A DNA stretch of 64,000 nt from Linderina pennispora (Eukaryota > Kickxellomycota > Kickxellomycetes > Kickxellales > Kickxellaceae), in the NCBI RefSeq assembly GCF_002104995.1, contig NW_024468255.1:124001-188000 (forward strand), in the 5' to 3' direction. The translations under genes and the position numbers were made by a program. A model generated the notes under the pieces. The model was not told the DNA's origin and searched no databases. It saw only the letters and a program-made list of their open reading frames with translations. Shown one piece after another: positions 12,265 through 62,889 of this stretch (position 1 is its first letter; each line of letters begins with the position of its first letter).

Positions 12265-12436
12265 ACCATATGTACCTACGAAACTATGCCAGTGGAATAG
12301 CGTCTGTGCTTGCTGCCCAACGAAGACAATAGAAGATGAACTGGTAGAAATCAGCTCTCAGTAGCCTATCTTTGCCTTATGTATAGTTTGATTTTTGAAA
12401 AATCAGAAGTTGGACACGGCTTTGTTGTTCGATTCG

Positions 12437-12531
12437 CCGACAATAGCTCAGTTGGTAGAGCGGGAGACTGTAGTGGAATTGAAAAAATTCTTGAAATCTC
12501 TAGGCCACCTGTTCGAATCAGGTTTGTCGGA
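12437..12531 (+). tRNA. tRNA-Tyr (GTA), intron-containing
   Basis: Acceptor stem CCGACAA pairs with TTGTCGG, discriminator A. The D arm is AGCTCAGTTGGTAGAGC. The anticodon is GTA in GGAGACTGTAG, followed by an A/T-rich intron of about 20 nt directly 3' of the anticodon region, the standard place for eukaryotic tRNA introns. The T arm is CCTGTTCGAATCAGG. A second copy, one base shorter in the intron, is at 48015-48108. Confidence 0.95.
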
Positions 12532-13472
12532 TTCTTTTTGAACATCATTTTTCTTGCTGGAAATTGGTTTTTTGGTTCTGAAATTGTTGTCATTGCTAGG
12601 AATGAAGGCAGGTTTGCTGGTAGCGCCTGTGTGTGCTCTTGTTGCTTTTTTTTTCTTTTTTTGTGCATATAGCTGGTGCTCATCTTGTGTAGCAACACCA
12701 TGCTCTGTGTGTCCGGCCACCAAGAACCTGCTTCTTTATCTGTATCTGCATGGCCATTTTGCCATCTGTCAACTATAAGATGCTCGGATGGCTGGTTCCA
12801 TAGACGCTATCTCGCCAGTACTGTTTGTAGATACTGTCGCTGCACTTCAAGTATGCGTATAAAAGCAGCTGGCACCAGAGTACCACACCAGCCTGATGGG
12901 ACCGTGAACGCACCTGGTGCATAGCAAACGCTCTTGGACCCAACAAAACGAAGGGCTGCCCTCCCTAGACTCTTTATCCTTGCTATGATTTTCTCATGAT
13001 GCTCGTGAGCAGCACTCAATTGTTAGCAAACGACATGTGCATCTAGCGCACTAAGTAAAGTGCGAGCTATACAAGTTCCTATCGACTTTATAGATGCGTC
13101 CACTTCCCTCAAATTATATACTTGGGTTTGAAGAGCGGGTGATGGCGTCTGCAGTTGCTGCCAGTGGCCGTGACGCCGTATTTGCAGGTGTCGTTGCGGA
13201 AGAATAAAAGACAATAGGCAGACGATACATATACAGCAGCAAATATGGATACGAGACTCATACAGATGCCAAAAAAAAGAGGTACAGCGCTTTCTACGGT
13301 GAGACTACCCAGAGGTAGCACGGAACACTTGGCAATGGCCCCAGCCGACAATGTGGCAGCACTAGAGTTGCTTGGTGCTCACAGCATGGTGTGGTGGCCA
13401 GCACCACGACGCATCGCGAGAAACAGCAAAAAGATGGCAAAGCAGCCCAGGAGGGGAAGAAAGCAAAAGAGA
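12532..13472. other. Spacer inside the left arm
   Basis: About 940 bp between the two tRNAs, duplicated at 47074-48014. Open frames present in both copies differ at start and Cys/Arg codons, so none is supported as coding. Includes a T-rich tract near 12645-12662. Confidence 0.5.
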
Positions 13473-13546
13473 TGCTCACTACAGGGGTCGAACCTGTGAC
13501 CTACGCGTTATTAGCACGTCGCTCTAACCGACTGAGCTAAGCGAGC
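13473..13546 (-). tRNA. tRNA-Ile (AAT)
   Basis: On the minus strand the 74 nt fold into a full cloverleaf. Acceptor stem GCTCGCT pairs with AGTGAGC (one G-T), D arm GCTC/GAGC, anticodon stem ACGTG/CGCGT around loop CTAATAA (anticodon AAT), T arm ACAGG/CCTGT with loop TTCGACC. No intron. An identical copy is at 47000-47073. Confidence 0.95.
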
Positions 13547-13786
13547 CGAACCAACTAGTGGATCCTCTTGTTGAGGTCACGCAATTTTTTTGTGTACATG
13601 AAACTCCCACTCTGTGGTACATTTTCTTGACAGCAGTCTCAGCCGCTCTGGCTCTTTGAGCAGCAAGAGGAGCTCATTTTGTCACGGATCATGCCGAGCA
13701 CTGCAGCTGGGACTTTCGAGTCTTTGCTTTAGATTGTATTGGTGTGAGAAATAGAGCGAAGTGGGTAGTTACATGGTGTTTTTGGT

Positions 13787-14605
13787 TTAGGCGCACTTGG
13801 GGTATGCCTGGGCGTTGGTGGGAGCCTTGGCAAGCTTGACCTCGGCATTGCGGCGGCGCGTCAGGCCAGACAGAACACGGCCACCAGCCTTGTTCCACTT
13901 GGGCAGCTCGCCGGCAATGACGGTGCTCGGGTTCTCACCAGCATTCAGGCGCTTGACCAGGTTCGATGACTGGGCGCCGCCGCAGCCAACATTGAACACC
14001 CACGACACCAGCGCACCCCACTGGTTCTGGTTGAGCTTGACCTTGCCGTTCAGGTACTTGCCCAGGCACGTGTACTTGGGGATATCGTCCTTGAGCAGAG
14101 CCTCGGCGGTGGCCTGGGTCAGCGGGAACTTGTACTTGACCTCCTTGCAGCCCTTGGTCTGGCACAGGTGGCCGTAGCCGACGGTGGGCAGACCGATGGG
14201 ATCGGGAGCCGGGCTCTTGACGAAGCCCTCGAACTCCTTGATCAGGTTGAGCGAGGCGGCGTTGACGCTCTTGCAGTATCCGCTCGAGGAACCGCCGCCA
14301 GTAGAGCCACCGCCGCCGGTGGATCCGCACTTCTTGGCAACATAGCCGTTCTTCCCAGTCTGGACGTAGTAGTCCGCAACATAGCACCCATGCTGGGTCT
14401 TGTCCCAGAGGTTGTTGCCGCTGACCGACGTGCCGGTTGTCTGGCACGAGAGTGTGACCTGCTCACCCTTCTTGTACGTGCGCACAACCTTGTCTGAGGT
14501 TCCCGGACCTGAGCGGCAGTTGACAGTGTCGCCCTTGATGGCGTAGCCGGAGGCAAGCTGCGAAGAAGTGGCGAGCAGGAGAGCAGCGAGTGTGACGAGC
14601 TTCAT
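13787..14605 (-). CDS. Secreted SH3-GH24 lysozyme (muramidase), copy 1
   Basis: 272 residues from the ATG at 14605. Signal peptide 1-20 ends LASG|Y. An SH3-like wall-binding module spans about 21-95, with VNCRSGPGTS, paired Cys and DKTQHGCYVADYYVQTG. A Gly/Ser/Thr linker (about 96-108) leads to a GH24 (phage T4-type) lysozyme domain, about 110-272. The catalytic triad can be aligned: E126 in EFEGF, D135 in PDPIG, T141 in TVGYGH. It should cleave MurNAc-GlcNAc bonds of bacterial peptidoglycan outside the cell. The GH24 fold is typical of phages and bacteria, and fungal GH24 muramidases with an SH3-like module are known, so an old bacterial or phage origin is inferred. A TATA box lies about 100 bp upstream and two MADS-type elements 370-455 bp upstream. 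The copy at 45942-46760 differs at three residues. Confidence 0.95.
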   Translation of the reverse strand: MKLVTLAALLLATSSQLASGYAIKGDTVNCRSGPGTSDKVVRTYKKGEQVTLSCQTTGTSVSGNNLWDKTQHGCYVADYYVQTGKNGYVAKKCGSTGGGGSTGGGSSSGYCKSVNAASLNLIKEFEGFVKSPAPDPIGLPTVGYGHLCQTKGCKEVKYKFPLTQATAEALLKDDIPKYTCLGKYLNGKVKLNQNQWGALVSWVFNVGCGGAQSSNLVKRLNAGENPSTVIAGELPKWNKAGGRVLSGLTRRRNAEVKLAKAPTNAQAYPKCA

Positions 14606-14706
14606 CTTTTTCGTATGTGTTTTGCGGAGGCCGTGTGAAGACTGGAGGGTAGATTGTTGTTTATCCTGTTGGTAATGGACTGGTCGTGACAGGCAACAGC
14701 GCTTCC

Positions 14707-14714
14707 TTTATATA
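14707..14714 (-). promoter_or_regulatory. TATA box of lysozyme copy 1
   Basis: TATATAAA on the minus strand, about 102 bp before the ATG; the same spacing holds in the right-arm copy. Confidence 0.75.
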
Positions 14715-14971
14715 CACAACTGGCTCCTGAATACAAGCATGAGGTATGGACTCGCTGTCGTAATATGCATAGTCGATAATTCTATTATTAGCACCCATGT
14801 CTGCATATCGCTTGTTTACTCTTCGGGCTGTGCTGCTGAATGGAAATTACCATTAGGCGGTCACTCATGCACAGCGTGCTGCTGCCAGAAATAAGCACTG
14901 ACCTAGAAGGTTTCGATAGTGTGCTTACGAAGCGAAGGCTTTATCCATGACGCCCGGCTTCCAGAATGTAT

Positions 14972-14981
14972 CTAAAAATAA
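14972..14981 (+). promoter_or_regulatory. MEF2/Rlm1-type MADS-box element, lysozyme copy 1
   Basis: CTAAAAATAA, about 367 bp upstream of the lysozyme ATG. It matches the MEF2/Rlm1 consensus YTAWWWWTAR. It recurs in the other wall-hydrolase promoters of this window. Confidence 0.6.
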
Positions 14982-15059
14982 ACCGACGTGCTGAATCCAC
15001 ATAGTGCAAGCCCCAGGACGATCTCTTGTAAGCGCGCATGAGCTTGCAGTTCCAATGGT

Positions 15060-15069
15060 CTAAAAATAA
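15060..15069 (+). promoter_or_regulatory. Second MEF2/Rlm1-type element, lysozyme copy 1
   Basis: CTAAAAATAA, about 455 bp upstream of the ATG and 88 bp from the first site. Both sites are kept in the right arm. Confidence 0.6.
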
Positions 15070-15193
15070 ATTGTCGAGATACAGACTAATGCTGCTGCCT
15101 GACAAAACCGCTATTTACGTTTATTCAGCTAGCAGCGAGTTGGTGCTATGTCTCGATATGCAAATAGGTCTTGTGCAGACTACACACAATCCA

Positions 15194-15785
15194 AGCATGA
15201 AAGTTGGATATACGTTCCCAGTGTATACTTGTGAATGCGGTGATAATGCATTGAGTTAATTGGTAGGAATATTTGAAAAGCAGCCATGAATACATCACAA
15301 TTCATATCAACAATGAGAGGCGAGTACATTACGTGCAATCTGTATAGCAATTGAGCATTTCCTGCTCAATATTGATTACGCAGAATGCCTTGTCAGTGAA
15401 AAGATAATAGGGAGCAGACATGGCGTGTCAGTGCTACAGCTGTGCACCAATGCAATGCGTCCATTTGTCAGCTGAATGGTATTGTTCGTACACTAAGCCA
15501 GCGGAGGTATGTCTCAGTCTCTATAAATATACGCTGTAATCAACACGAAAAATATGCATGCTCACGCTGGGCGGACTATGCTGTATATACCTGGTATTGC
15601 TCCGTCTATACCTCTCTTCCAGACACACGCACCATTCTAGAGATATCAACTCTTTGAGCCTTTGACTATCGTGGTTATCCATCCACCTCCTTTGCAAACA
15701 TGTTACCAGATGATCAACACGGTAAAGATACTCACTGATAGTGGGGTGGTTCATCAGAAAACGACTGGAGTGAATAAGCCATGTT
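15194..15785. other. Intergenic between left arm and COQ5-like pseudogene
   Basis: About 590 bp, A/T-rich; short open frames without recognisable content. Confidence 0.4.
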
Positions 15786-16240
15786 CCACTATCGCAGAAA
15801 GATATGATTGTGCCCACACCAGCACGCCATTCAACCCAATTTTTGAAAGCAAAGAAGTGCTTATCAAACACATTGCTCCAAATCCAGGTGACAGGCTCCT
15901 GGATATGGCAGCAGGATCCAGGCGCATGGACATATACTATCTGCAGTGCTAGTATGAGACGAACTGCGGCTCTGCGTCGTCTGTGGTGCTATTTGATCTA
16001 AACCAAGGGAGGTTTGGTTATGCAAAAAAACAAATTGCGCGATACAAAGTGGGCAAAAGATGGAAGATTGGATTAAGTGCGAGGGAATGCAGACGATCTA
16101 CTGGTGTTCCTGGGCAGCCTGTTTGGTATTTACTGCTGGAAGCTGGGTTTCCACAACATGCCGAATCGTGACAAGGTGCTGAAGGAAGTATTTTACGTAC
16201 CCAAGCCTGGTGGCACGCTCGCAGATGTGGAGTGCAATAG
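15786..16240 (+). pseudogene. COQ5-like C-methyltransferase pseudogene
   Basis: Pieces of a ubiquinone-biosynthesis methyltransferase appear in order but broken. First comes STIAERYD, matching the N-terminal S-V-A-x-x-Y-D of the family, then NPGDRLLDMAAGS for the SAM-binding motif I. A TAG stop follows, then VVLFDLNQGRFGYAKKQI for the acidic strand-2 motif in the same frame. After a frame change comes FHNMPNRDKVLKEVFYVPKPGG, the late conserved block. Family members read this last part as G-I-R-N-x-x-x-x-D-K-V-L-x-E-x-x-R-V-L-K-P-G-G. The conserved G-G-T-G-D-I is replaced by AAGSRRMDI. With at least one stop and one frameshift and the middle part missing, it is a relic; a working COQ5 must lie elsewhere. 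It adjoins the inner edge of the left duplication arm. Confidence 0.75.
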
Positions 16241-16261
16241 CGGGGCAGGGGGATAGGCAAA

Positions 16262-16486
16262 ATGGGAATGCAAGCTTTATACATGTTTATCAGAGTGGTT
16301 TTCAAGAAAACAAAGGCCAAGGACATGGCGCAGGTAGAAAACATGGTCACAAGTGCTATGGCGTTTCAACATCCTCCGGAATCTGGTGTAGAGATAAATG
16401 CAGCAGTATTCAGCACTAAGAGCAAGGGGTTCGAGTATGGCACATGCGGTCTAGCTGTAGGGTACTTTGGCACCAAGCCTCTGTAG
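16262..16486 (+). pseudogene. Gene remnant of unknown identity
   Basis: A 74-codon open frame ending FEYGTCGLAVGYFGTKPL. It looks like the C-terminal end of a larger protein because it has a protein-like composition and no start context. It directly follows the COQ5-like relic but does not resemble COQ5. I do not recognise the family. Confidence 0.3.
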
Positions 16487-16599
16487 TTTCTACATGTACA
16501 ACAATAAAAGTGGCTAGGGGTTTATCAGCAAGGAAAGAGGAGTAGGAATACTAAGTACAGATGGTGATGGCAGAGTTACAAAATGAGGGGTTGGTGGTG

Positions 16600-16860
16600 C
16601 TAATAGATGTGGGCGGCAGTGCGGGTTTTCAGGAACGGCACGGTGACGATCTGGCCATCGCGGGTATAATTTTTGGCAATCTCGTCGTGGGCAGTAATAC
16701 AGATAGGCGTGACGGCGCCTGGGAACCACGGCAGGTGCCTGAACCAAAAGCGCTTTTCGGTCGAATACATGGTCTTGGAATTCCAGCTCCCCAAGGAGTC
16801 GTGCGGGGTGCGGTACATGAAGCGCTCGAGGTTCGACTTGACCTTGCTCTGTTACTCGAG
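16600..16860 (-). pseudogene. C-terminal gene remnant of unknown identity, with an internal stop
   Basis: On the minus strand, protein-like sequence runs ERFMYRTPHDSLGSW...HLPWFPGAVTPICIT...NYTRDGQIVTVPFLKTR. It extends upstream through an in-frame TAA into KTEDCLRLE, so the frame is broken. The aromatic- and Pro-rich composition suggests an ancient coding sequence, but I cannot name it. Confidence 0.35.
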
Positions 16861-17414
16861 CCGCAGGCAGTCCTCGGTTTTGTGTAGGTGGGCAATATTG
16901 TTTTAAACCTAGGGGTGGTAGTGTACTAGACAAAACATCATTATATCTGAGCCAGGCAGCTGGTTTGATCCTAGTATACCCGGCCATGAGCATGGAGTTG
17001 ATTATGCTCCGCTAGGGATGCACTATTGCAATTGACCACATGGTATATACTAACAGGTACGTTGTCATTGGCAGCGGGTGGGCGATATAGCAAAAATATA
17101 GTGCTGCCATGCATGCCAGCGGATGCCTCCGTAGAGGCCTTGCAAGTACTTCAGTAATTCTTGCCTTTAGCTCTACTGCTTGTCAAAGGCGATGCGTGTG
17201 TAGTTGAATTTCTGCTGGTCTAAACAAATGAGAAAAACAAAAAAAACATGGGCCCTAAGAGTATCACCGTTTTTGGTCCAGACGAGGCAGTAAACAGTCT
17301 AGAGAAGCGCTAATTTAGTCCACGCAACGGTTCCCAGCAAACCCGTTTCGCAACTATTTTATTTCACATTCTCGAGCAAATATACGGCAGTGACCCTGTG
17401 TAAACATCGCAAGG
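16861..17414. other. Intergenic upstream of the forkhead gene
   Basis: About 550 bp without a recognisable gene; probable promoter of the forkhead gene. Confidence 0.4.
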
Positions 17415-17561
17415 ATGCAGGCCAGCAGCGCAACTAGCAACACAAACAACAGCCGCATCGAGGAGTGCCGGCTGAAGATAAAACTACAGGACCAATACCA
17501 TTTCCAGTTCTTTTCAAAACTAATCCATCATCTCCACACGACACGCAATTCCTCGTTCTGA
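17415..17561 (+). CDS. Upstream open reading frame (48 codons) before the forkhead gene
   Basis: An ATG at 17415 opens 48 codons, beginning MQASSATSNTNNSR and ending in TGA at 17559-17561. The stop is followed by a single A and then the forkhead ATG at 17563. If the transcript starts upstream of 17415, ribosomes would translate this peptide first and reach the main ORF by reinitiation or leaky scanning. That arrangement often lowers and regulates expression of transcription factors. The peptide resembles nothing I know. Whether the mRNA includes it is not shown by the sequence. Confidence 0.4.
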   Translation: MQASSATSNTNNSRIEECRLKIKLQDQYHFQFFSKLIHHLHTTRNSSF

Positions 17562-17562
17562 A

Positions 17563-18624
17563 ATGAGTGCCTCCAACACCACGGTGCATGACCACACTGC
17601 TGGCCCAATCCACAGCCCTGGCACAGCGCTTGTAGCTGGAATGGCAAAGAAGCGGCGGCGTCCGCCATACTCGTACACTGCACTGATTGCGCAGGCGATT
17701 CTGAGTTCAGAGGACCAGAAGCTGACTCTGCGCGAAATATACGACAGCATCAACGAGATGTACCCAAAGATATGCGATGGTCCAGATATTGGCTGGCAGA
17801 ACACAATCCGTCATAACCTCAGTCTTAACCAGTGCTTCCAGCGCATCCCGCGACATCAGCTGCCACCAGAATTGAGCGCCAAGCTGCGGGGAAAGGGTAG
17901 TTACTGGACCGTTGATGTGGAGCTGATGGACCCCAGCACGCGGAAACGGCTCGAAGAGGCCATGGCGCTTGCCACTGGACATGAGATGCCAAGAAAGCGG
18001 CAGAAGACTGGGAGCAGCACAAACAGCCCGATAGCATCTCGCTACCAGAGCCCAGCATTTGCAACACCACAGTGCTTCCACGGCTCAATTTCAACACCAG
18101 CAGCACCAGCAGCCCTGTCCTCGATCCCAGCGCCCAGCACATTTATTTTCAGCAGCGCTCCGCTGCCAGTACCATTGCTGAATCACCAGCAGCCAAAAAT
18201 AGAGTTGCCACCAATTGTCTCCATGACAGCGCACCATCCCCATGCGTTGACTCCGGTGCACCGCACTTCGCATACATACTACCGGCACCTTAGCAGGGAT
18301 TTCCGCAACGAGGCCAGCACCATTCCGATTCCACGCGGCAACTCACAGGTGCCAATCACTGGGCGGTGGGAGACAGCCGTACCAGATAGTGGGTCTGCCT
18401 ACGAGTTGAGCCCAGCCCAGTACTCGCTCGAGGTTGCGGTGTCATGCTCGCGCTCAACGGCCCGCGATCTCGGCAGCAATCTGCGCACCGGCGTGTTCCA
18501 GTCGTCGACACTCCAGTCTGCAACACCGTACTCTCTGTCTCCTTCGCCCACTGCCGATGCCCAGTCTGGCAGCGACGGCGAGTCTGAGTCGACAAAGCTC
18601 TCTATAAACCACCTGTTGAACTGA
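17563..18624 (+). CDS. Forkhead-box transcription factor
   Basis: 353 residues, intronless. The forkhead DNA-binding domain spans about residues 33-128. It opens RRPPYSYTALIAQAI, has the recognition helix WQNTIRHNLSLN with the invariant N-x-x-R-H-N-L-S core, and ends in the wing segment RGKGSYWTVD. A basic PRKRQK patch after it can act as a nuclear signal. The remaining ~210 residues are Ser/Pro/Thr-rich and low in complexity, with several S/T-P sites. It is a nuclear regulator; fungal relatives drive cell-cycle or developmental genes, and which applies here cannot be told. No FHA domain is present, which argues against a direct Fkh1/Fkh2 orthologue. A short uORF ends one base before the start. 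Confidence 0.93.
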   Translation: MSASNTTVHDHTAGPIHSPGTALVAGMAKKRRRPPYSYTALIAQAILSSEDQKLTLREIYDSINEMYPKICDGPDIGWQNTIRHNLSLNQCFQRIPRHQLPPELSAKLRGKGSYWTVDVELMDPSTRKRLEEAMALATGHEMPRKRQKTGSSTNSPIASRYQSPAFATPQCFHGSISTPAAPAALSSIPAPSTFIFSSAPLPVPLLNHQQPKIELPPIVSMTAHHPHALTPVHRTSHTYYRHLSRDFRNEASTIPIPRGNSQVPITGRWETAVPDSGSAYELSPAQYSLEVAVSCSRSTARDLGSNLRTGVFQSSTLQSATPYSLSPSPTADAQSGSDGESESTKLSINHLLN

Positions 18625-45840: not shown

Positions 45841-45941
45841 GGAAGCGCTGTTGCCTGTCACGACCAGTCCATTACCAACAGGATAAACAACAATCTACCC
45901 TCCAGTCTTCACACGGCCTCCACAAAACACATACGAAAAAG

Positions 45942-48108: not shown

Positions 48109-48272
48109 CGAATCGAACAACAAAGCCGTTCAACCTCTGATTTTTCAAAAATTAAATTATACATAAGGCAAAGGCAGGCTACTGAGCTGATTTCTACCGG
48201 TTCATCTTCTATTGTCTCCGTTGGACAGCAAGCACAGACACTATTAAACTGACATAGTTTAGTAGGTACATA

Positions 48273-48601
48273 TTAGTTGGGTATTGCCAATATATCGGCG
48301 CATTCCTGTTTTGTCGCTGCTTATTCAAAAATAGTTCAATCAGGTTGCATCCGGTTCACTGCAGGTACTCATTCCTGTTGGCGCAGCCTATATATAGATC
48401 ACGGATCCTTGCATCTGTTTAGCAACACACTGGAGTTATCTAAGCAATGTATGCATTGCAAACACGTATTGAGTATGCCAAAAATAGATTACGAAACTGA
48501 GTCTTTACTTCAACAAACGCTGGTATAAATAGGGCTGGTTGCCAGTGCACTACCGCCAGCATACCATCACCAACAAAAACAGTACCTTCCACATCAGTAA
48601 A
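48273..48601 (+). promoter_or_regulatory. Promoter region of SH3-CHAP gene 1 (A)
   Basis: TATAAAT at 48524-48530 is 78 bp before the ATG. Two one-mismatch MADS-type elements are present: TCAAAAATAG at 48325-48334 and CCAAAAATAG at 48478-48487. This is the only hydrolase promoter of the eight without a full consensus site. Confidence 0.5.
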
Positions 48602-49339: not shown

Positions 49340-49528
49340 GATCGAGAGCTGCCCTGGATTTCTATTTCTGTAAGATATTTTACAATCAAAAGCCATTTAC
49401 TCCTAGATCTTGGCAGCAGCAATGTCTAAGCTATTCCCTGGACCGATGGGCATGCAGTTGCCACTGAACACACATGCTATTTATAAATGCTTGGATGTTG
49501 ATTTTTCTTGAAGATCGCATGGCTGCAT
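49340..49528. other. 3' region of CHAP gene 1 with conserved TCTGTAAGATA element
   Basis: TTTCTGTAAGATATTTTACAATC begins near 49365, about 25 nt after the stop. Nearly the same string follows CHAP gene 3 (near 52405). Confidence 0.45.
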
Positions 49529-49790
49529 GCGGACTGTCTTGCTGAACAGCCGCACATAAGAACCCCTGTATTCCATTGTCCAAATGAAAATGATGATGCA
49601 GCACTGATGTGCACAGAAACAATGTCGCCCATGTCCGCTTACCAAGCAGCCGCATATCTCTTGTCCGCACACCCCCTTTTCTCACGAAGTGGCATTCCAA
49701 AAATAAACAGCACGCACATTTCCATATATCAAAAACGCCGATCGTATGCACTCGTACATAAGCTGAAGTCCACAAAAGTTCAAGAAAATA
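49529..49790 (+). repeat. Duplicated promoter block of type-B CHAP genes (copy 1)
   Basis: About 260 bp upstream of CHAP gene 2, from GCGGACTGTCTTGC to AAAAGTTCAAG, matching 52571-52836 upstream of CHAP gene 4 with scattered changes. Contains CCAAAAATAA at 49697-49706, which corresponds to CTAAAAATAA in the other copy. Confidence 0.8.
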
Positions 49791-49797
49791 CCGCTGT

Positions 49798-49807
49798 CTA
49801 AAAATAA
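49798..49807 (+). promoter_or_regulatory. MEF2/Rlm1-type element, CHAP gene 2
   Basis: CTAAAAATAA, 268 bp upstream of the ATG. Confidence 0.6.
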
Positions 49808-49962
49808 ATTTCTATCAAGGTGCCAATAATAGAATTCTTCTATTGCTCAAAGACATCTCAGACCGGTAGCGGCTGGTTAGAGCAGGTTTCTATCTCGAAA
49901 CACATGCATGCACATGGTACAGTCAACTCGTCAATATGTGTGCCTGAAGCTGGAGTCAAACA

Positions 49963-49969
49963 TATAAAG
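49963..49969 (+). promoter_or_regulatory. TATA box of CHAP gene 2
   Basis: TATAAAG, about 103 bp before the ATG. Confidence 0.7.
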
Positions 49970-50065
49970 GGAGCGGGCAAAGGACTGCCAACAGCCAGAT
50001 ACTCATCATCACAAAACAGTTCTCTTGAAAACCATTTCCCCCTCCACCAAAAACTCCTTTCAGCC

Positions 50066-50791
50066 ATGAAGTTCACAGCAGCTGCAACACTTCTCATCGC
50101 CACCATCTCTCCGCTGGTGAGTGCCTACCCCATCTACAAGGCTGATGTCGTCAACTGCCGCTCCAGCCCCGGTACGTCTGGTGAAGTTGTCAAGACGTAC
50201 GCAAAGGATACTGAGGTCGAAATTAGCTGCCAGATCTCCGGCGACACCGTCAAGGGCAACGCCCTCTGGGACAAGACTCAGGATGGTTGCTATGTTTCCG
50301 ACTACTACATCAAGACCGGATCTTCTGGATACGTCTCAGGAAGATGCAGCGGTGGTTCCACAGGTGGCGGCTCTACCGGTGGCGGCTCCACTGGTGGTGG
50401 CAGCACTGACATGAAGGATGATTATCCTTACAAGAACAACTGCGGTCCTGTCGACAAGTGGAGCTATTACCAGTGCCAGTGCACATCGTTTGTCGCCTGG
50501 CGCATCAACTCGCGCCTGGGCATCAACTTCCACAACCGCTACAAGGGCAAGGCGTGGGGTAACGCGAATGAGTGGGATGATGCGGCCCGTAGTTCTGGTG
50601 TTACTGTTAGCAGTACGCCAAAGGTCGGTGCTGTTGCGCAGACCAATGCTGGGCGGTTTGGCCATGTTGCTTGGGTTGCAAAGGTTGATGGTGACAACGT
50701 TGTGGTCGAGGAGTACAACAAGGGCGGAACCGAGCACTACGGCACTCGCACCGTTCCCAAGAGCTCGTTCAACTACATCTACCTCAACTAA
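50066..50791 (+). CDS. Secreted SH3-CHAP peptidoglycan hydrolase 2 (type B)
   Basis: 241 residues from the ATG at 50066 (CAGCC-ATG-AAG); the frame is open upstream but that part is promoter. Signal peptide ends VSA|Y. SH3-like module with VNCRSSPGTS and DKTQDGCYVSDYYIKTG, linker of three GGGST units, then CHAP. The CHAP domain has Cys in QCQCTSFVAW, WGNANEWDDAARSSG, PKVGAVAQTNAG, His in FGHVAWVAK, and EEYNKGGTE. The PKVGA..QTNAG..GHVAW stretch is very close to staphylococcal-type CHAP domains. Type B marker: NKGGTE after the acidic residues. Substrate: peptide or amide bonds in bacterial peptidoglycan, extracellular. The catalytic Cys-His pair is intact. Confidence 0.93.
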   Translation: MKFTAAATLLIATISPLVSAYPIYKADVVNCRSSPGTSGEVVKTYAKDTEVEISCQISGDTVKGNALWDKTQDGCYVSDYYIKTGSSGYVSGRCSGGSTGGGSTGGGSTGGGSTDMKDDYPYKNNCGPVDKWSYYQCQCTSFVAWRINSRLGINFHNRYKGKAWGNANEWDDAARSSGVTVSSTPKVGAVAQTNAGRFGHVAWVAKVDGDNVVVEEYNKGGTEHYGTRTVPKSSFNYIYLN

Positions 50792-50810
50792 AATGATTCT
50801 ATATTTCATT

Positions 50811-50822
50811 TTCTGTAAGATA
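50811..50822 (+). other. Conserved 3' element TCTGTAAGATA, CHAP gene 2
   Basis: TTCTGTAAGATA about 20 nt after the stop. The RNA form UGUAAGAUA fits a nine-base PUF-type site (UGURNNAUA). Confidence 0.35.
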
Positions 50823-51647
50823 CATGTCTGTCAATATATATACGGCAATAGTCTATTCCTATCAGCACAAAATTGTGCAATAGGAGGATCTGTACAGCGT
50901 GTTAGCTAGGTCAAATCAGTTGGCTTATCACAGTTTGGATATTAAAATCAGAAACCAAATCATCAATGAACATCTGCAATATTGAAAACGGGGCGTGCTC
51001 GCTGAATGTGTCCAATACTGGGCAAAGAACACATATCATTGGCTACTAATCAACTTTTAACAGCGGACATTTGGCGGTGTAGTTCTACCCTTGTAGACTG
51101 TTGCTCCGTGCGGAGGCAATCTTGCTGAACCAGCATGAGCGACAAACAGTATATTCTTCTGCTTCCAAAAATAACGTAGAACCTATATAGAAAGCACAAC
51201 AGAAATGCCGCCCATGACCGCTACCCAAGATGCTGCATATTCCTTGCTCAATTTCTGCATCCACAGAAGGTGCCGATCTAAAAATAGCTTACATGCTATA
51301 TAGATGGTGAGGATAATCCCATGCAGCCGTACATAAGCAGCGGCCTAGCTTAGCTAAACTAACGAAACCGGATTCTAAAAATAAAGAAACTACAGGACAA
51401 AAATAGAATGTGCAGTTTCCTGGAACTGTTCTTTCGCGGTGTTGGATGCACGACGTCGATGTGCTTTTTGCAAGCACAGACGTAAGTGACAGATAGTCCA
51501 ATGTGTTTGTCTGGTTGATGTGTGACGGGGGATTACTGATCATGTATAAAAGGAGTAGAAAAAACCTGCTGTGCCAACTAAAACTCAACAGCAACAAACC
51601 AAAAGCACTTTTCTCAATAACCTTTTTCTCAACAAAACACATCAGCC
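50823..51647 (+). promoter_or_regulatory. Promoter region of SH3-CHAP gene 3 (A')
   Basis: About 825 bp. Holds CTAAAAATAG at 51278-51287 and CTAAAAATAA at 51375-51384 (370 and 273 bp before the ATG). A one-mismatch CCAAAAATAA is at 51165-51174. TATAAAA at 51545-51551 is 103 bp before the ATG. No gene seen. Confidence 0.6.
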
Positions 51648-52385
51648 ATGAAGTTCACTGCGCTTGCGACCCTCTTCCTCGCTACTATTTCTCCGCTAGC
51701 GAGCGCCTATCCTGTCCAGAAGGCTGATACCGTCAACTGCCGCTCCAGCCCCAGCACCTCGGGCAAGGTGGTCAAGACCTACAAGAAGGATGCTGACGTA
51801 AAGATCACCTGCCAGGTCTCGGGACAGAACATCCAGGGCAACTCGCTGTGGGACAAGACCCAGGATGGCTGCTATGTTGCTGACTACTACATCAAGACTG
51901 GCAAGAACGGCTATGTTGCCAAGCAGTGCAGCGGCGGTGGTTCATCTGGTGGTGGCGGCAGCAGCGGCGGTGGCAGCTCTGGGTCGGCTGGACCTATGAC
52001 CAACGACTACCCGTACAAGAGCAACTGCGGTCCTGTCGATAAGTGGAACTACTTCAAGTGCCAGTGCACATCGTTTGCTGCCTGGCGCATCAACTCGCGC
52101 CTGGGAATCAACTTCCACAACCGCTACAAGGGCAAGGCATGGGGAAATGCCAACCAGTGGGACGATGCAGCGCGTGCCTCGGGTGTCAAGGTCGACGGTA
52201 CTCCGACTCCTGGTTCCATTGCGCAGACCAACCAGGGCGGCGGCGGCTTTGGGCATGTTGCTTGGGTCGCTAAGGTGTCGGGCAACAATGTTGTGATTGA
52301 GGAGTACAACTACCGTGTCCGCAGGGGCTACGGGACGCGTACTGTTCCCAAGAGTGCCTTCAACTATATCCACCTCAAGAACTAA
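51648..52385 (+). CDS. Secreted SH3-CHAP peptidoglycan hydrolase 3 (type A')
   Basis: 245 residues. Signal peptide 1-20 (ends ASA|Y), SH3-like module about 21-94 with VNCRSSPSTS and DKTQDGCYVADYYIKTG, and a Gly/Ser linker about 95-114. CHAP spans 118-245: catalytic C140 in CQCTSFAAW, WGNANQW, PTPGSIAQTN, H203 in FGHVAWVAK and E219/N221 in IEEYNY. Type A like gene 1; the two also share 3'-flank sequence. Note TSFAAW where the others have TSFVAW. Extracellular peptidoglycan amidase or endopeptidase is inferred from the family. Confidence 0.93.
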   Translation: MKFTALATLFLATISPLASAYPVQKADTVNCRSSPSTSGKVVKTYKKDADVKITCQVSGQNIQGNSLWDKTQDGCYVADYYIKTGKNGYVAKQCSGGGSSGGGGSSGGGSSGSAGPMTNDYPYKSNCGPVDKWNYFKCQCTSFAAWRINSRLGINFHNRYKGKAWGNANQWDDAARASGVKVDGTPTPGSIAQTNQGGGGFGHVAWVAKVSGNNVVIEEYNYRVRRGYGTRTVPKSAFNYIHLKN

Positions 52386-52570
52386 AATTTCCTTATATTT
52401 CTCTTTCTGTAAGATATTTTACAATCACAGCCCATTTCACACTAGTTCTTGTCAGCATCAAGTCCTGCGCTATTTTCTGGAAGGACATGCAGCTGCCGTT
52501 AAAACACCAGTGCCTTTACCAAATGTTCAGAAGCAGAATTTTGTTTTATTTTGAATTCCGCCAGGTCGCA
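52386..52570. other. 3' region of CHAP gene 3 with conserved TCTGTAAGATA element
   Basis: TTTCTGTAAGATATTTTACAATC at about 52405, matching the flank of CHAP gene 1. Confidence 0.45.
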
Positions 52571-52836
52571 TGCGGACTGTCTTGCAGAACTGCTGTGCAT
52601 GAGAAACCACGAATCCCATTTTCTCCAATAGAAAAGTGATGATGCAGCATTGATATGCACAACAAGTGTGCCGCTCATGTCCGCTTACAAAGCAGCCACA
52701 TATCTCTAGTCCGCACACCTCCCCCTTTTTCTTCATGATATGGCAGTCTAAAAATAAACAGCACCCGCGTTTCCATATATCAAAACCGCAGATCGTATGC
52801 ACTTGTACATTAGCTGAAGTCTAGAAAAGTTCAAAG
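52571..52836 (+). repeat. Duplicated promoter block of type-B CHAP genes (copy 2)
   Basis: Matches 49529-49790. Holds CTAAAAATAA at 52748-52757. Confidence 0.8.
52748..52757 (+). promoter_or_regulatory. MEF2/Rlm1-type element, CHAP gene 4
   Basis: CTAAAAATAA, 340 bp upstream of the ATG. A near match CTAAAAATAC is at 52842-52851. Confidence 0.6.
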
Positions 52837-52992
52837 ACTATCTAAAAATACAATTCCACCAAGACAACAACAAATTATTTCTATTTCACAGTGAGATCCT
52901 GGGACCACTTAGCGACTGGTTAGAGCAGGTCTCTGTCCCAAAGCAACATGCATGATGCGGTGGACTTGTCAACATACGTGTGAACAAACATG

Positions 52993-52999
52993 TATAAAA
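52993..52999 (+). promoter_or_regulatory. TATA box of CHAP gene 4
   Basis: TATAAAA, about 95 bp before the ATG. Confidence 0.7.
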
Positions 53000-53087
53000 G
53001 GAGCAGGAAAAGGGCTGCCCATCAGCCAAATACTCAGTAACAAGAAACATCCCACTTCCTCTCGTCACCAAAAAATTTCCTTCAGCC

Positions 53088-53801
53088 ATGAAGCTCACGG
53101 CAATCGCAACACTCTTCCTCGCCACCATCTCTCCGCTGGCGGGCGCCTACCCCATCTATAAGGCTGATACTGTCAACTGCCGCTCCAGCCCCAGCACCTC
53201 GGGCAAGGTGGTCAAGACCTACAAGAAGGGCGATGACATCAAGCTCACCTGCCAGATCTCCGGCGAGACCATCAAGGGCAACTCGCTGTGGGGCAAGACC
53301 TCGGACGGCTGCTACGTCGCTGACTACTACATCAAGACTGGGTCCTCCGGGTACGTTGCTGGACGGTGCAGCGAGGGTGGCTCATCTGGTGGCGGCTCCA
53401 CTGGCGGCAGCAGTACCGGCATGAAGGATGATTATCCTTACAAGGACAACTGCGGTCCTGTTGACAAGTGGAACTACTTCAAGTGCCAGTGCACGTCGTT
53501 TGTTGCCTGGCGCATCAACTCACGTCTGGGCATCAACTTCCACAACCGCTACAAGAGCAAGGCGTGGGGTAACGCGAAGGAGTGGGATGAGGCGGCGCGC
53601 GCATCAGGCGTCAGGGTCGACGGTACCCCGAAAGTGGGTGCGGTTGCGCAGACCAATGCCGGGCCATTCGGCCATGTTGCTTGGGTGGCCAAGGTCTCAG
53701 GCAACAATGTTGTGGTTGAGGAGTACAACAAGGGTGGAACTGAGCGCTACGGCACCCGCACTGTCCCCAAGAACTCATTCAACTATATCCACCTCAACTA
53801 A
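53088..53801 (+). CDS. Secreted SH3-CHAP peptidoglycan hydrolase 4 (type B')
   Basis: 237 residues. Signal peptide ends AGA|Y. SH3-like module with VNCRSSPSTS and GKTSDGCYVADYYIKTG (Gly replaces Asp of the DKTQDG seen in genes 1-3), then a short Gly/Ser/Thr linker. CHAP has Cys in CQCTSFVAW, PKVGAVAQTNAG, His in FGHVAWVAK and EEYNKGGTE. Type B like gene 2, with a shared promoter block. Its SH3-coding half is almost the same as that of gene 5 at 62152, while its CHAP half belongs to type B. Intact catalytic Cys-His. The urease gene converges on it 175 bp downstream. Confidence 0.93.
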   Translation: MKLTAIATLFLATISPLAGAYPIYKADTVNCRSSPSTSGKVVKTYKKGDDIKLTCQISGETIKGNSLWGKTSDGCYVADYYIKTGSSGYVAGRCSEGGSSGGGSTGGSSTGMKDDYPYKDNCGPVDKWNYFKCQCTSFVAWRINSRLGINFHNRYKSKAWGNAKEWDEAARASGVRVDGTPKVGAVAQTNAGPFGHVAWVAKVSGNNVVVEEYNKGGTERYGTRTVPKNSFNYIHLN

Positions 53802-60312: not shown

Positions 60313-61128
60313 TCACTTGCAGCTAGGATAAGCCTGCTTCGATGAAGGGGTCTTGGCAAGTTTGACCTCGGCATTGCGACGGCGCGTCAGGCCAGACAGA
60401 ACACGGCCACCAGCCTTGTTCCACTTGGGCAACTCGCCGGCAATAACAGTGTTCGGGTTCTCACCAGCGTTCAGGCGCTTGACCAGGTTCGACGACTTGG
60501 CATTACCGCAGCCAACGTTGAACACCCACGACACCAGCGCACCCCACTGGTAGTCATTGAGCTTGACCTTGCCGTTCAGGTACTTGCCCAGGCACGTGTA
60601 CTTGGGGATATCGTCCTTGAGCAGAGCCTCGGCGGTGGCCTGGGTCAGCGGGAACTTGTACTTGACCTCCTTGCAGCCCTTGGTCTGGCACAGGTGGCCG
60701 TAGCCGACGGTGGGCAGACCGATAGGATCGGGAGCCGGGCTCTTGACGAAGCCCTCGAACTCCTTGATCAGGTTGAGCGAGGCGGCGTTGACGCTCTTGC
60801 AGTATCCGCTCGAGGAACCGCCGCCAGTAGAGCCACCGCCGCCGGTGGATCCGCACTTCTTGGCAACATAGCCGCTGGTGCCAGTCTGGACGTAGTAATC
60901 CGCAACATAGCAGCCGTGCTGGGTCTTGTCCCAGAGAGAGTCGCCCTTGATGGTCTCACCGGAGGTCTGGCAGGAGAGAGTGACATCGTTGCCGCTGTTG
61001 TATGAGCGGACAACACTGTAGCTGGTACCAGGTCCGGAGCGGCAGTTGACGCCGTCGGCCTTGATGGTGTAGCCGGAGGCCAGCTGGGTTGAGGCAAGGA
61101 GAGCGATTGCAGACGTAACAAATCTCAT
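60313..61128 (-). CDS. Secreted SH3-GH24 lysozyme (muramidase), copy 3
   Basis: 271 residues. Signal peptide ends ASG|Y. The SH3-like module differs from copies 1 and 2 at many positions (YTIKADGVNCRSGPGTSYSV, SGETIKGDSLWDKTQHGC), whereas the linker and first half of the GH24 domain are almost identical at base level. Catalytic Glu in EFEGF, Asp in PDPIG and Thr in TVGYGH are intact. The C-terminus has drifted (KTPSSKQAYPSCK). The SGETIKG segment is also found in the SH3 modules of CHAP genes 4 and 5, hinting at exchange between the two enzyme classes. Divergent from CHAP gene 5 over a 1 kb shared promoter. Confidence 0.94.
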   Translation of the reverse strand: MRFVTSAIALLASTQLASGYTIKADGVNCRSGPGTSYSVVRSYNSGNDVTLSCQTSGETIKGDSLWDKTQHGCYVADYYVQTGTSGYVAKKCGSTGGGGSTGGGSSSGYCKSVNAASLNLIKEFEGFVKSPAPDPIGLPTVGYGHLCQTKGCKEVKYKFPLTQATAEALLKDDIPKYTCLGKYLNGKVKLNDYQWGALVSWVFNVGCGNAKSSNLVKRLNAGENPNTVIAGELPKWNKAGGRVLSGLTRRRNAEVKLAKTPSSKQAYPSCK

Positions 61129-62151
61129 TGTTGCAGGGGTTTCAGAAAGAGGAGGATGGGAAGGGGATTGTAGGGGATAGAGGGGTTGGTTAGTATGGAG
61201 ATGAATAGCGTGTGTGGTCGTATGGATGTCTGTGACGTGCGACAGCTGCCATGTTTATATACATTTCCTGGGAGTGGTTGGTTGGGGTGAGGTGCTAACG
61301 ACTTTTTTTTGGAAAGTTCTGCATAAAGACGCTTCTGTAATCCAGCAGACAAGCGGGTGTTCAGCAAGTGCTTTGCAGGATCCACGCAGTGCTTGTTTAT
61401 TTTTAAACCTGCTGCACAAGATGCATTCTGACATGGATAGGAGCTCTTGTACATATTGCAACGACACAACTAGAAGCGCGGACTTCACACATGTGTTCGT
61501 TCCGCTTAGATAATACAGATTGTTCCAAAATTAGAAGGGCGGAGCTTGAAAACTTCATTAGCTTATGCCTCAGCATTCACGCGAATAAGGCAACAACAGC
61601 TGATGCTTATAAAGACAACCACGCCGATCACTATTTTCGCACACTATACGGACCGTTTAGACCACAACATGGACATGCAGGTAGGTGCGGAGCAGTGAGG
61701 GAGTGTGAGGTGGAGATTGTCGGGAATTTGGTTGTAAATGGCGTCTGGCCAGTGGCAAACAATGCATGCAGCACATCCATGTATGCGGGTGGTCCGGCGC
61801 TAACGGTCTTTACCTCAAAGACTAGCGAATTGGCAACTAGCGTGTATCCTGCACAGCATCTATAATGTATTCTAAAAATAGCTGAAGGTGAAATAAGCGA
61901 GCTCCCCTGTACTAAGCTATTTCCGCAAGACCTGGATTTCCATGATAGAAACCTGGCAATGGGCCTGTTTTCGCGCAGGAAATAATGTGTAGAACAGGGT
62001 GGAGTATGGAGTATTTGGGGGAACTGCACCATCTTATATAAAGCGTGCCGATTACCGGCTGGTCCACATTGTCAACACCAACCGACATACCCTTTCCTCT
62101 ACCTAACAACCGTAAACGAAACAAACCCCTTCCCCTCAAGTTCCTTCAGCC
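61129..62151. promoter_or_regulatory. Shared divergent promoter, lysozyme copy 3 / CHAP gene 5
   Basis: 1 kb between divergent starts. TATATAAA on the minus strand at 61254-61261 serves the lysozyme (126 bp from its ATG), and TATATAAA at 62035-62042 serves the CHAP gene (117 bp). MADS-type elements: TTAAAAATAA on the minus strand at 61397-61406 and CTAAAAATAG at 61872-61881. A 124-codon frame at 61491-61865 lies inside and is unsupported. Confidence 0.65.
61872..61881 (+). promoter_or_regulatory. MEF2/Rlm1-type element (exact CTAAAAATAG), CHAP gene 5
   Basis: Full match to the yeast Rlm1 form CTA(W)4TAG, 280 bp upstream of CHAP gene 5. Confidence 0.6.
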
Positions 62152-62889
62152 ATGAAGTTCACGGCAATCGCAACACTCTTCCTCGCCACCATCTCTCCGC
62201 TGGCGGGCGCCTACCCCATCTATAAGGCTGATACTGTCAACTGCCGCTCCAGCCCCAGCACCTCGGGCAATGTGGTCAAGACCTACAAGAAGGGCGATGA
62301 CATCAAGCTCACCTGCCAGATCTCCGGCGAGACCATCAAGGGCAATTCGCTGTGGGGCAAGACCTCGGACGGCTGCTACGTTGCCGACTACTACACCAAG
62401 ACCGGTTCCACTGGCCTTGTCACCGGACGGTGCAGCACCGATGGCGGCTCATCTGGTGGCGGCAGCAGCGGCGGTGGCAGCTCTGGGTCGGCTGGACCTA
62501 TGACCAACGACTACCCGTACAAGAACAGCTGCGGTCCCGCTGACAAGTGGCTGTACTTCAAGTGTCAGTGCACGTCGTTTGTCGCCTGGCGTATCAACTC
62601 GCGCCTGGGCATCAATTTCCACAACAAGTACAAGGGCAAGGCTTGGGGCAATGCCAACCAGTGGGACGAGGCTGCCCGTGCCTCAGGTGTCAAGGTCGAC
62701 GGTACTCCGACGCCTGGCTCCATTGCGCAGACCAACAAGGGCGGCGGCGGCGCAGGCCATGTCGCCTGGGTCGCCAAGGTTTCCGGAAACAGCGTCACTA
62801 TCGAGGAGTACAACTACGGCGTCTACAGAGGATATGGTACTCGTACTGTCCCCAAGAGCACCTTCAACTATATCCACCTCAAGTACTAA
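62152..62889 (+). CDS. Secreted SH3-CHAP peptidoglycan hydrolase 5 (mosaic B/A)
   Basis: 245 residues. The signal peptide and SH3 module are almost those of gene 4 (GKTSDGCYVADYY, SGETIKGNSLWG). The linker and start of the CHAP domain equal those of gene 3 (GGSSGSAGPMTNDYPYK), and the CHAP half is type A (PTPGSIAQTNKGGGG, EEYNYGVYRGYGTRT). Catalytic Cys in CQCTSFVAW and His in AGHVAWVAK are present. It lacks the conserved 3' element seen after genes 1-3. Converges on the NAD(P)HX dehydratase gene with an 80 bp gap. Same inferred role: extracellular cleavage of bacterial peptidoglycan peptides. Confidence 0.93.
   Translation: MKFTAIATLFLATISPLAGAYPIYKADTVNCRSSPSTSGNVVKTYKKGDDIKLTCQISGETIKGNSLWGKTSDGCYVADYYTKTGSTGLVTGRCSTDGGSSGGGSSGGGSSGSAGPMTNDYPYKNSCGPADKWLYFKCQCTSFVAWRINSRLGINFHNKYKGKAWGNANQWDEAARASGVKVDGTPTPGSIAQTNKGGGGAGHVAWVAKVSGNSVTIEEYNYGVYRGYGTRTVPKSTFNYIHLKY

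Follow-up and report, generated by a model that had tools for sequence, protein, structure and literature searches.

Head-to-head GH24 and CHAP genes with an apparently exchangeable SH3-like head in the fungus Linderina pennispora

The closest described relatives of the enzymes considered here are the fungal SH3-like CWBD-GH24 muramidases, such as TsGH24 (PDB 8b2s; PMC10394673), together with the GH184 family. According to the sections of that paper that were consulted, fungal SH3-GH24 enzymes, among them those of Mortierella, Metarhizium and Trichophaea, have muramidase activity; the OD-drop was 0.17 for the catalytic domain without its SH3 head compared to 0.50 with the head. The same sections deal with enzymes taken singly and not with pairing, exchange of heads or regulation, and the bacterial members that they mention are GH184 proteins without an SH3 head; the terms CHAP, Linderina and Coemansia have no occurrence in the main text. 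A second study (PMC8778642), in its consulted sections, deals with the expansion of GH24 in early-diverging fungi in terms of abundance only, without CHAP or pairing, and already places L. pennispora among the fungi with the highest GH24 counts. Outside the fungi, GH24 domains are found in phage lysis enzymes, the GH24 endolysins (e.g. of Synechococcus phage S-CBS2), whose matches to the fungal proteins span the GH24 domain at 43-49% identity in the best 12 of 1323 records. On the CHAP side, the actinobacterial Phytohabitans and Kineococcus have a CHAP domain without the fungal-type SH3 head, whereas genome G087 and the metagenome proteins P0249 and P0250 (actinobacterial) have the same SH3-CHAP order as Linderina. 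Of the four cysteines that are conserved in the fungal SH3, the actinobacterial SH3 has two, as judged by eye. With the fungal SH3 profile, eight SH3-CHAP proteins of metagenome or other origin were found (i-E 1.4e-16 to 3.5e-20). Among the open-access matches listed, no title dealt with pairing of GH24 and CHAP in fungi, with swapping of the head or with the regulation of such genes.

Hydrolase genes of the window and their copies in the genome

We analyzed a 64-kb stretch of L. pennispora DNA (the window), for which an initial annotation had claimed three SH3-GH24 and five SH3-CHAP enzymes with signal peptides, wall-binding SH3-like modules and intact catalytic residues. All eight open reading frames run uninterrupted from ATG to stop at the coordinates given in Table 1. 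The three GH24 proteins matched PF00959 (E 1.3e-38 to 6.6e-40; 132.5-136.8 bits against a cut-off of 22.3) and the five CHAP proteins matched PF05257 above its cut-off (E 1.7e-17 to 8.8e-20), in full agreement with the claimed inventory. The bacterial SH3_3 Pfam model scored under its cut-off in all eight proteins. Two of them, P0002 (GH24) and P0006 (CHAP), were compared with solved structures. The N-terminal modules of both resembled the fungal SH3-like domains 8b2f, 8b2g and 8b2h, and that of P0006 also matched the head of 8b2s (all E 2.9e-23 to 7.7e-33). The SH3-GH24 muramidase 8b2s itself, with the same domain order and SH3-like head as P0002, matched residues 22-271 of the 272 residues of P0002 (E 4.2e-104). 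The other two GH24 proteins of the window align to P0002 at 99% and 85%, and together these matches uphold the SH3-like wall-binding module of the GH24 enzymes. Signal peptides were assigned by eye, and in the alignments of P0002 and P0006 the solved SH3-like chains start at the point where the putative signal peptide would end; signal peptides are likely in both enzyme classes.

The catalytic residues of the window genes are intact, as claimed (GH24, E-D-T; CHAP, Cys-His-Glu/Asn). Residues E126, D135 and T141 were invariant in all 30 fungal GH24 enzymes aligned, with a spacing that we take to be that of T4 lysozyme, and C140, E219 and N221 were invariant in all 49 fungal and bacterial CHAP rows, with H203 present in at least 90%. 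Throughout the genome, the strict Glu-Asp-Thr motif was found in 10 of the 15 intact GH24 genes. By eye, the five misses comprise one gene without the Asp (C190:244865), two with E-D-T and an altered neighbour, and two with an insertion. The CHAP Cys, His and Glu-Tyr-Asn motifs were found in 20 of the 21 intact genes, the last one having an altered form by eye.

Table 1. Coordinates of hydrolase genes, upstream words and duplicated blocks in the window
Feature	Position	Strand	Basis or remark
SH3-GH24 muramidase, block B	13787..14605	-	ORF and Pfam
SH3-GH24 muramidase, block C	45942..46760	+	ORF and Pfam
SH3-CHAP hydrolase	48602..49339	+	ORF and Pfam; without CTAAAAATA in 700 bp upstream
SH3-CHAP hydrolase	50066..50791	+	ORF and Pfam
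SH3-CHAP hydrolase	51648..52385	+	ORF and Pfam
SH3-CHAP hydrolase	53088..53801	+	ORF and Pfam
SH3-GH24 muramidase, left arm of head-to-head pair	60313..61128	-	ORF and Pfam
SH3-CHAP hydrolase, right arm of head-to-head pair	62152..62889	+	ORF and Pfam
Shared intergenic region of the pair, 1023 bp	61129..62151	.	TATA-like boxes near both ATGs
CTAAAAATA, two copies (14972, 15060)	14972..15068	+	upstream of GH24 13787-14605
CTAAAAATA, two copies (45479, 45567)	45479..45575	-	upstream of GH24 45942-46760
CTAAAAATA, one copy	49798..49806	+	upstream of CHAP 50066
CTAAAAATA, two copies (51278, 51375)	51278..51383	+	upstream of CHAP 51648
CTAAAAATA, two copies (52748, 52842)	52748..52850	+	upstream of CHAP 53088
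CTAAAAATA, one copy, intergenic region of the pair	61872		280 bp from CHAP start, 744 bp from GH24 start
Block B	12268..18624	.	97.1% segmental duplicate of C190:235198-241550
Block C	45353..53797	.	97.8% segmental duplicate, inverted, of C190:229651-238119

The previously claimed number of eight enzymes is correct for the window, but the L. pennispora assembly contains many more, with 29 matches to GH24 at 25 loci and 26 to CHAP, also at 25 loci, spread across it; these counts include mirror contigs and are lower bounds (at least 25 loci for each family). A six-frame search of the genome, in which introns were disregarded, found no NlpC/P60, GH25 or Amidase_2 domain. Six of the window genes lie within a block of 6-12 kb that is present in four copies, 95-98% identical, on contig C190, which supports the claimed local expansion. 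Block B contains tRNA-Leu, tRNA-Ile, GH24 and forkhead genes and no CHAP gene, and block C contains a GH24 gene, two tRNA genes and four CHAP genes. A palindromic mis-assembly of C190, in its simple form, was ruled out because the blocks are islands of 6-12 kb and the matching of blocks C and D stops at their ends. The short contigs C130, C163, C59 and C194 are mirrors of C57a, C57b, C1a and C1b (95.8-97.8%), and C92 has one in C38 (98.6%), so that these copies could be allelic or have arisen by late duplication. The contigs C130, C163, C38, C59 and C194 were left out of the own-genome test of head exchange and of the upstream counts presented below, and included in the dN/dS medians, which were 0.32 for 82 GH24 pairs and 0.22 for 161 CHAP pairs (pairs with dS 0.15-1.5), no value reaching 1. 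These ratios indicate that both enzyme families are under purifying selection.

Gene pairs and exchange of the SH3-like head

At 10 of the 25 GH24 loci, a CHAP gene or its remnant is oriented divergently from the GH24 gene. This genome-wide head-to-head arrangement, a repeated gene pair that was overlooked in the initial annotation, is represented in the window by positions 60313-62889. Two of the 10 paired loci mirror others at 96-97%, leaving 8 distinct pairs, of which 4 have both genes intact and 4 look decayed. Across all 10, the 5 pairs with both members intact measure 774-1023 bp from ATG to ATG, and the other half have one broken member. The CHAP side of the C168 pair is visible only as SH3 fragments and by DNA alignment. 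Shared intergenic or flanking DNA can be aligned between several of the pairs, which are therefore not independent. The genome search for CHAP gave no match near the GH24 matches on C146 (two), C169, C201 and C1:1775994. In other fungi, GH24 and CHAP matches apparently lie on one contig (co-location, orientation aside) in, for example, Linderina macrospora (FBU59_000030/31), Coemansia furcata (H4S07_003179/3180) and Humicola hyalothermophila (VTK26DRAFT_5248/5250), and such apparent co-location is found both in the Kickxellales and in the Sordariomycetes.

A single clade of GH24-linked SH3 modules was rejected in the L. pennispora genome (AU p = 1.1e-8, 30 rows) as well as over the fungi (AU p = 5.3e-14, 69 rows). 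The best fungal SH3 tree (69 rows) has 14 partner changes, in a protein alignment of only 80 columns with many weak forks and bootstraps that had not settled. In the SH3 tree, the Humicola GH24 head groups with the Humicola CHAP head (97/96). At the C57b pair, the signal and SH3 sequences of the GH24 and CHAP genes show 98% DNA identity over 276 bp (dS 0.08), a conversion-like tract beyond which the identity is 40-58% in windows of 60 columns. The GH24 genes at 45942 and 60313 show 91.6% DNA identity in the catalytic half and only 74.6% in the half encoding the signal and SH3 module. CHAP-linked SH3 modules at C57 match the latter half of the 45942 gene with a DNA identity of 82%. Likewise, the GH24 head at C190_74504 is 84% identical in DNA to the CHAP head at C1b. 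In all six GH24 pairs compared, the dS of the SH3 part exceeded that of the catalytic part. These comparisons, which are new here, indicate that the signal-SH3 half has moved between the GH24 and CHAP classes, an exchange that the initial annotation had overlooked. Since the dS of the 45942 head is the same (0.70) to the C57b CHAP head and to the GH24 head at 60313, the exchange appears to be old, except at C57b/C163; the resemblance of the 45942 head to CHAP heads resides in nonsynonymous sites, with a dN of 0.10 versus 0.22 to the 60313 head.

A shared upstream word and its possible meanings

The word CTAAAAATA, which was likewise overlooked before, was found in 16 of 20 representative upstream regions of 700 bp and in none of 118 background windows, which were GC-matched and not promoter-matched. 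The form CTA(A/T)4TA(A/G) was present in 15 of the 20 regions and again in no background window. When the 252 letter permutations of the word were ranked, CTAAAAATA came first and the runner-up reached 6 of 20. Four of the 20 genes are without the word in 700 bp upstream, including those at 48602 and 60313 in the window. Six of nine mutually non-alignable upstream groups contain the word (Fisher 1.6e-8), and in 194 kb all 25 copies, many of them block copies, are located within 1 kb upstream of hydrolase genes, a space that makes up 9.8% of the bases. With 603 copies genome-wide compared to 172 for the reversed word, CTAAAAATA is over-represented in general, and on contig C1 only 8 of its 85 copies are at hydrolase genes. 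Tandem repeats in window positions 44500-63500 did not explain the spacing of the word, about 90 bp. By its letters, CTAAAAATA is a site of the MEF2/Rlm1 (MADS-box) type, the form of which we take to be YTA(A/T)4TAR, and five matches to MADS-box genes were found in the genome; a MADS-box protein is encoded at C190:385523. The GH24 and CHAP genes may share one switch through this putative MEF2/Rlm1-like word.

These observations could also be made on ordinary multicopy lysozymes that expanded for nutrition or defence, the pairing being left over from the duplication of one ancestral pair and the SH3 exchange arising neutrally as neighbours in inverted orientation underwent conversion. We consider this somewhat unlikely. 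It is in line with the position of L. pennispora among the fungi richest in GH24 (PMC8778642, consulted sections), with the alignable intergenic and flanking DNA common to several pairs, and with the broken member in half of the 10 pairs, but it fits less well with the close likeness of GH24 and CHAP heads across contigs (C190-C57, C190_74504-C1b), the grouping of the two Humicola heads, the apparent co-location in Kickxellales and in Sordariomycetes, and the presence of CTAAAAATA in six upstream groups that cannot be aligned with each other.

Because CTAAAAATA resembles an Rlm1 site, the enzymes might instead act on the fungus itself, remodelling its own wall within the cell-wall-integrity pathway, and MADS-box genes are indeed present. 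To our knowledge, however, fungal walls contain no peptidoglycan. In the sections consulted, RlmA, a factor of the Rlm1 type, functions in wall integrity (PMC5015955) and GH24 is classed under cell wall remodelling (PMC8778642), but both catalytic families are of bacterial-wall types and the GH24 relatives are measured muramidases (PMC10394673), and we regard an action on the own wall as improbable.

Ancestry and the proposed two-enzyme system

In the CHAP tree, 52 fungal or fungus-like rows grouped in a single clade apart from 18 bacterial rows (100/96), based on 70 of 174 retrieved proteins and 128 columns, with bootstraps not settled. In the GH24 tree, a single clade likewise united 43 fungal rows, separate from 57 rows of viral and bacterial origin (99/97), based on 43 of 123 GH24 proteins, 57 of 115 bacterial or viral loci fetched and 168 columns, with long branches that meet and bootstraps not settled. 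The viral-contig scans kept 1 and 80 loci. Both fungal clades span Kickxellomycotina, Ascomycota and others. By the refuting condition that the initial annotation had set, the genes do nest within a fungal family. Kickxellales and Ascomycota rows interleave, however, so that the trees do not establish simple vertical inheritance either. More than one origin of the Kickxellales CHAPs is drawn by the tree and not forced (AU p = 0.417); the corresponding value for GH24 was 0.063. The bacterial or phage ancestry proposed in the initial annotation agrees with the nearest outside relatives found, which are actinobacterial for CHAP and SH3-CHAP and phage endolysins for GH24. By sequence likeness, the nearest SH3-CHAP relatives outside the fungi were found to be actinobacterial among the bacteria searched (Actinobacteria for the SH3 head), which is new here. 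In contrast, the proposed acquisition at the present locus was not borne out. Since the sampled fungal members form one clade per family, the trees point to an old acquisition followed by spread among fungi and local duplication, and not to a fresh local transfer. Despite the bacterial or phage kind of the domains, a recent direct acquisition of the window genes with a bacterial or phage donor, or contamination of the assembly by bacterial DNA, is hardly credible and was rejected on the trees and gene neighbours: the outside relatives are distant (the 43-49% of the phage GH24 domains; for the Phytohabitans P0114 CHAP domain 61% identity to P0006, over 55% of P0006), the neighbours of the genes on their 1-Mb contig include Med14, urease and forkhead genes, and relatives occur in other Linderina and Coemansia assemblies.

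The reading that we prefer is that these genes probably encode a co-regulated, secreted, two-enzyme system for peptidoglycan degradation with an exchangeable head. The GH24 enzyme is predicted to cut the glycan strand of bacterial peptidoglycan and the CHAP enzyme its peptide part, as an amidase or endopeptidase. Both would be secreted and active, and the same kind of SH3-like head would keep them on the bacterial wall, a common head implying a common target. CTAAAAATA would turn the genes on together, perhaps when a hypha meets bacteria, and duplicated pairs with swapped heads would yield a varied set of lysins. The products may serve either to nourish the fungus or to kill its competitors. 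More tentatively, and with rather less confidence, the pair may be seen as the fungal equivalent of a phage lysis cassette: a head-to-head unit, built from a GH24 of phage type and an SH3-CHAP of actinobacterial type, that was passed between fungal phyla and, in Linderina, multiplied into a MADS-box-driven regulon whose heads are swapped by gene conversion to give renewable antibacterial lysins.

With this proposal, what was an inventory of fungal lysozymes becomes a system that can be tested, with two complementary wall-cutting activities, one shared and exchangeable head and one candidate switch. If true, it would show how a eukaryote can combine parts taken from bacteria and phage into antibacterial weapons and diversify them, it would make naturally paired lysins available, and it would open a direct route to asking whether fungi sense and digest bacteria.

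Hydrolase genes and duplicated blocks

As the initial annotation had claimed, the window contains eight SH3-GH24 and SH3-CHAP genes; all eight are real and have open reading frames. They lie among ordinary fungal genes (Med14, a complete urease, an ABC transporter, a forkhead factor and a mitochondrial carrier). In the two of the eight proteins that were compared, the N-terminal module (the head) matched the SH3-like wall-binding domain of the solved fungal muramidases 8b2f, 8b2g, 8b2h and 8b2s. The SH3-GH24 enzyme was already known: one study describes muramidase activity for nine head-bearing GH24 enzymes of fungi, including those of Mortierella, Metarhizium and Trichoderma, and an OD-drop of 0.50 with the SH3 head versus 0.17 for the catalytic domain alone (PMC10394673). 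Likewise, two other papers record a high GH24 count in Linderina pennispora (PMC8778642) and GH24 and GH25 lysozymes in Umbelopsis (PMC7928374).

Genome-wide, the search gave 29 matches for GH24 (25 loci) and 26 for CHAP (25 loci), counts that are lower bounds and include mirror contigs. The latter (C130, C163, C38/C92, C59 and C194) are short, 96-99% identical to other contigs, and may be alleles, haplotigs or recent duplicates. In the stretches retrieved, 36 genes join the SH3 module to a catalytic domain within a single open frame. On C190, the contig of the window, a block is present four times, and this duplication accounts for the GH24 genes at 13787 and 45942 and for the tandem CHAP array. 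In a second assembly of L. pennispora, two CHAP genes with consecutive tags (EC988_004409/4410) were found on 2,903-base contigs. Several other features of these regions are included in the table. A 163-bp TG...CA element is present in one mirror contig and absent from the other (stretches L042 and L043); it has a short target duplication, looks solo-LTR-like by eye, and has relatives near the hydrolase loci of C38, C92, C35 and C2. The SH3 protein encoded by stretch L161, which has no GH24 or CHAP match, is by eye perhaps a GPI-anchored surface protein that would bind bacterial walls.

Locations of hydrolase loci, duplicated blocks and associated features
Feature	Location	Remarks
Block, four copies	C190: 81.9-90.6, 136.3-142.6, 169.4-177.8, 229.7-241.5 kb	Both orientations; DNA identity 95-98%
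Second copy (B)	window 12268-18624	Without CHAP genes
Third copy (C)	window 45353-53797	
Forkhead gene, duplicated with blocks B/D	window 17563-18624; copy near C190:240489-241550	Both open
tRNA-Leu and tRNA-Ile genes	window 12437-13546, 47000-48108	Travel in duplicated blocks
Urease gene	window 53976-56660	Single-chain (gamma, beta, alpha parts); between CHAP array and head-to-head pair
Inverted repeat, 3.6 kb	C190:197283-200835 and 205033-208649	96.7% identity; outside window
SH3-GH24 copy	C190:244865-245668	By eye without catalytic Asp; possibly inactive or binding-only
163-bp element	C1:2844968-2845130	Compared with C194
L161	G000:C162:35100-36200, minus strand	SH3 head, Ser/Thr-rich stretch, hydrophobic C-terminus
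L161-like match	C1:3138751-3138960	
Doubled word off GH24/CHAP loci	C1:117058-117158; C212:753779-753894	The only 2 of 21; candidate further regulon members
Divergent GH24-CHAP loci	C130; C57 (two: C57a, C57b); C163; C190 window 60313-62889; C190 at 830 kb; C35; C2; C112; C168	
Linderina macrospora, GH24 and CHAP	contig 79,078	Adjacent tags
Coemansia furcata, GH24 and CHAP	contig 4,877	Adjacent tags
Humicola hyalothermophila, GH24 and CHAP	contig 21,074	Tags 5248 and 5250
Coemansia thaxteri, GH24 and CHAP	contig 43,728	Names from two records
Chaetomidium leptoderma, GH24 and CHAP	contig 72,319	
Further GH24 and CHAP case	15,585-base contig	
CHAP-like ORF, viral-collection contig	L045 6891-8234	54% to window CHAP over residues 165-243

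The divergent pair and its upstream word

Ten loci have a GH24 gene oriented divergently from a CHAP gene or a remnant of one; on C168 the CHAP side is visible as SH3 fragments and through its alignment, at the DNA level, with the CHAP gene of C57a. Both genes are intact in five pairs, with start codons 774, 919, 920, 953 and 1023 bp apart, and in the remaining five at least one gene is broken by stops or frame shifts, for which sequencing error or introns are possible causes. Since C130 mirrors C57a (95.8%) and C163 mirrors C57b (96.7%), the ten reduce to eight distinct pairs, of which four are intact. Several pairs align with one another across the intergenic region, so that there the pair itself is the duplicated unit. 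Other fungi also appear to carry GH24 and CHAP genes on one contig, judging from source contigs of the same size. In L045, the ORF directly before the CHAP-like one looks by eye like a lytic transglycosylase gene, which would make a parallel pair cutting glycan plus peptide.

The genes share an upstream word, CTAAAAATA, which we take to be of the MEF2/Rlm1 type. Of 20 representative genes (left from the 36 intact ones after exclusion of 6 mirror-contig genes and 10 near-identical copies in the blocks), 16 have it upstream, versus none of 118 background windows from the C190 stretch, which were GC-matched and not promoter-matched. Among 252 letter permutations it ranked first, the runner-up reaching 6/20, and it occurs in six of the nine mutually non-aligning groups into which the 20 upstream regions fall. 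In 194 kb of C190 all 25 copies, many of them block copies, lie at most 1 kb upstream of GH24/CHAP hydrolase genes, and the window holds 10 copies versus 0.16 expected. Doubled words with a spacing of 80-100 bp are found at 21 sites genome-wide, 19 of them at GH24/CHAP loci (a count including mirror contigs and overlapping pairs), versus none in the genome for the reversed pattern. Single copies speak against exclusiveness: they number 603 genome-wide versus 172 for the reversed word, and 8 of the 85 copies on C1 are at hydrolase genes. MADS-box genes are present in the genome (five matches), and their products may regulate the GH24/CHAP genes via CTAAAAATA.

Exchange of the SH3 head

If each class had kept its own SH3 module, the GH24-SH3 modules would form one group. 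Such a group was rejected both within the genome (AU p = 1.1e-8, 30 DNA rows) and over fungi and bacteria (AU p = 5.3e-14, 69 protein rows). The best SH3 tree for the latter rows implies 14 partner changes; it was built from 69 of the 272 SH3-matching proteins and only 80 columns, and many of its forks are weak. Over 276 bp of signal+SH3 sequence, the two opposed genes of the C57b pair share 98% identity (dS 0.08), versus 40-58% outside this tract (60-column windows). This tract is recent and conversion-like, and the older exchange is less sharp. The GH24 genes at 45942 and 60313 are separated by a dS of 0.19 between their catalytic halves and of 0.70 between their SH3 halves, and the halves therefore have different histories; but SH3 dS exceeded catalytic dS in all six GH24 pairs compared. 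The 45942 head is as distant from the C57b CHAP head (dS 0.70) as from the 60313 head, being nearer to the former only at amino-acid-changing sites (dN 0.10 versus 0.22). The Humicola GH24 and CHAP heads cluster with one Chaetomium GH24 head (97/96). From these sequences, both classes would seem to need the same kind of head, and hence would share a wall target. At dS 0.15-1.5, median dN/dS was 0.32 for GH24 (82 pairs) and 0.22 for CHAP (161 pairs), and no pair reached 1.

Origins and interpretation

The proposal that the genes were acquired from bacteria or phage and expanded locally stands in part. Bacterial- and phage-type relatives and the fourfold C190 block agree with it; acquisition at this locus does not follow, as the fungal rows form one clade per family. 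For CHAP, 52 fungal or fungus-like rows were separated from 18 bacterial rows (100/96), and for GH24, 43 fungal from 57 viral and bacterial rows (99/97), the top phage match being 49%. Named bacteria among the 120 CHAP matches listed were Phytohabitans and Kineococcus. The SH3-CHAP order also occurs in the bacterial proteins P0249 and P0250 and the bacterial genome G087. The bacterial genome search for the head covered Actinomycetota, Solirubrobacter's phylum: 22 of 396 genomes drawn matched P0249, 12 of them in the SH3 part alone and only G087 over both domains (62-67%), and the two Solirubrobacter genomes drawn had no match. Plain vertical descent within fungi is not shown by the trees either, because in both of them rows from Kickxellales are intermixed with rows from Ascomycota: Fusarium adjoins the Linderina CHAPs (96/96), and Trichoderma and Metarhizium fall within the Coemansia GH24s (95/94). 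This interleaving suggests transfer between fungi for both families; a single Kickxellales clade was not rejected (p = 0.417 for CHAP, p = 0.063 for GH24).

Among the matches listed from the open-access literature, no title concerned the GH24-CHAP pair, the head exchange or the upstream word. The best reading, and one we consider likely, is that of a co-regulated two-enzyme system, with possible roles in feeding, in defence or in controlling associated bacteria, that degrades bacterial walls and has an exchangeable head.
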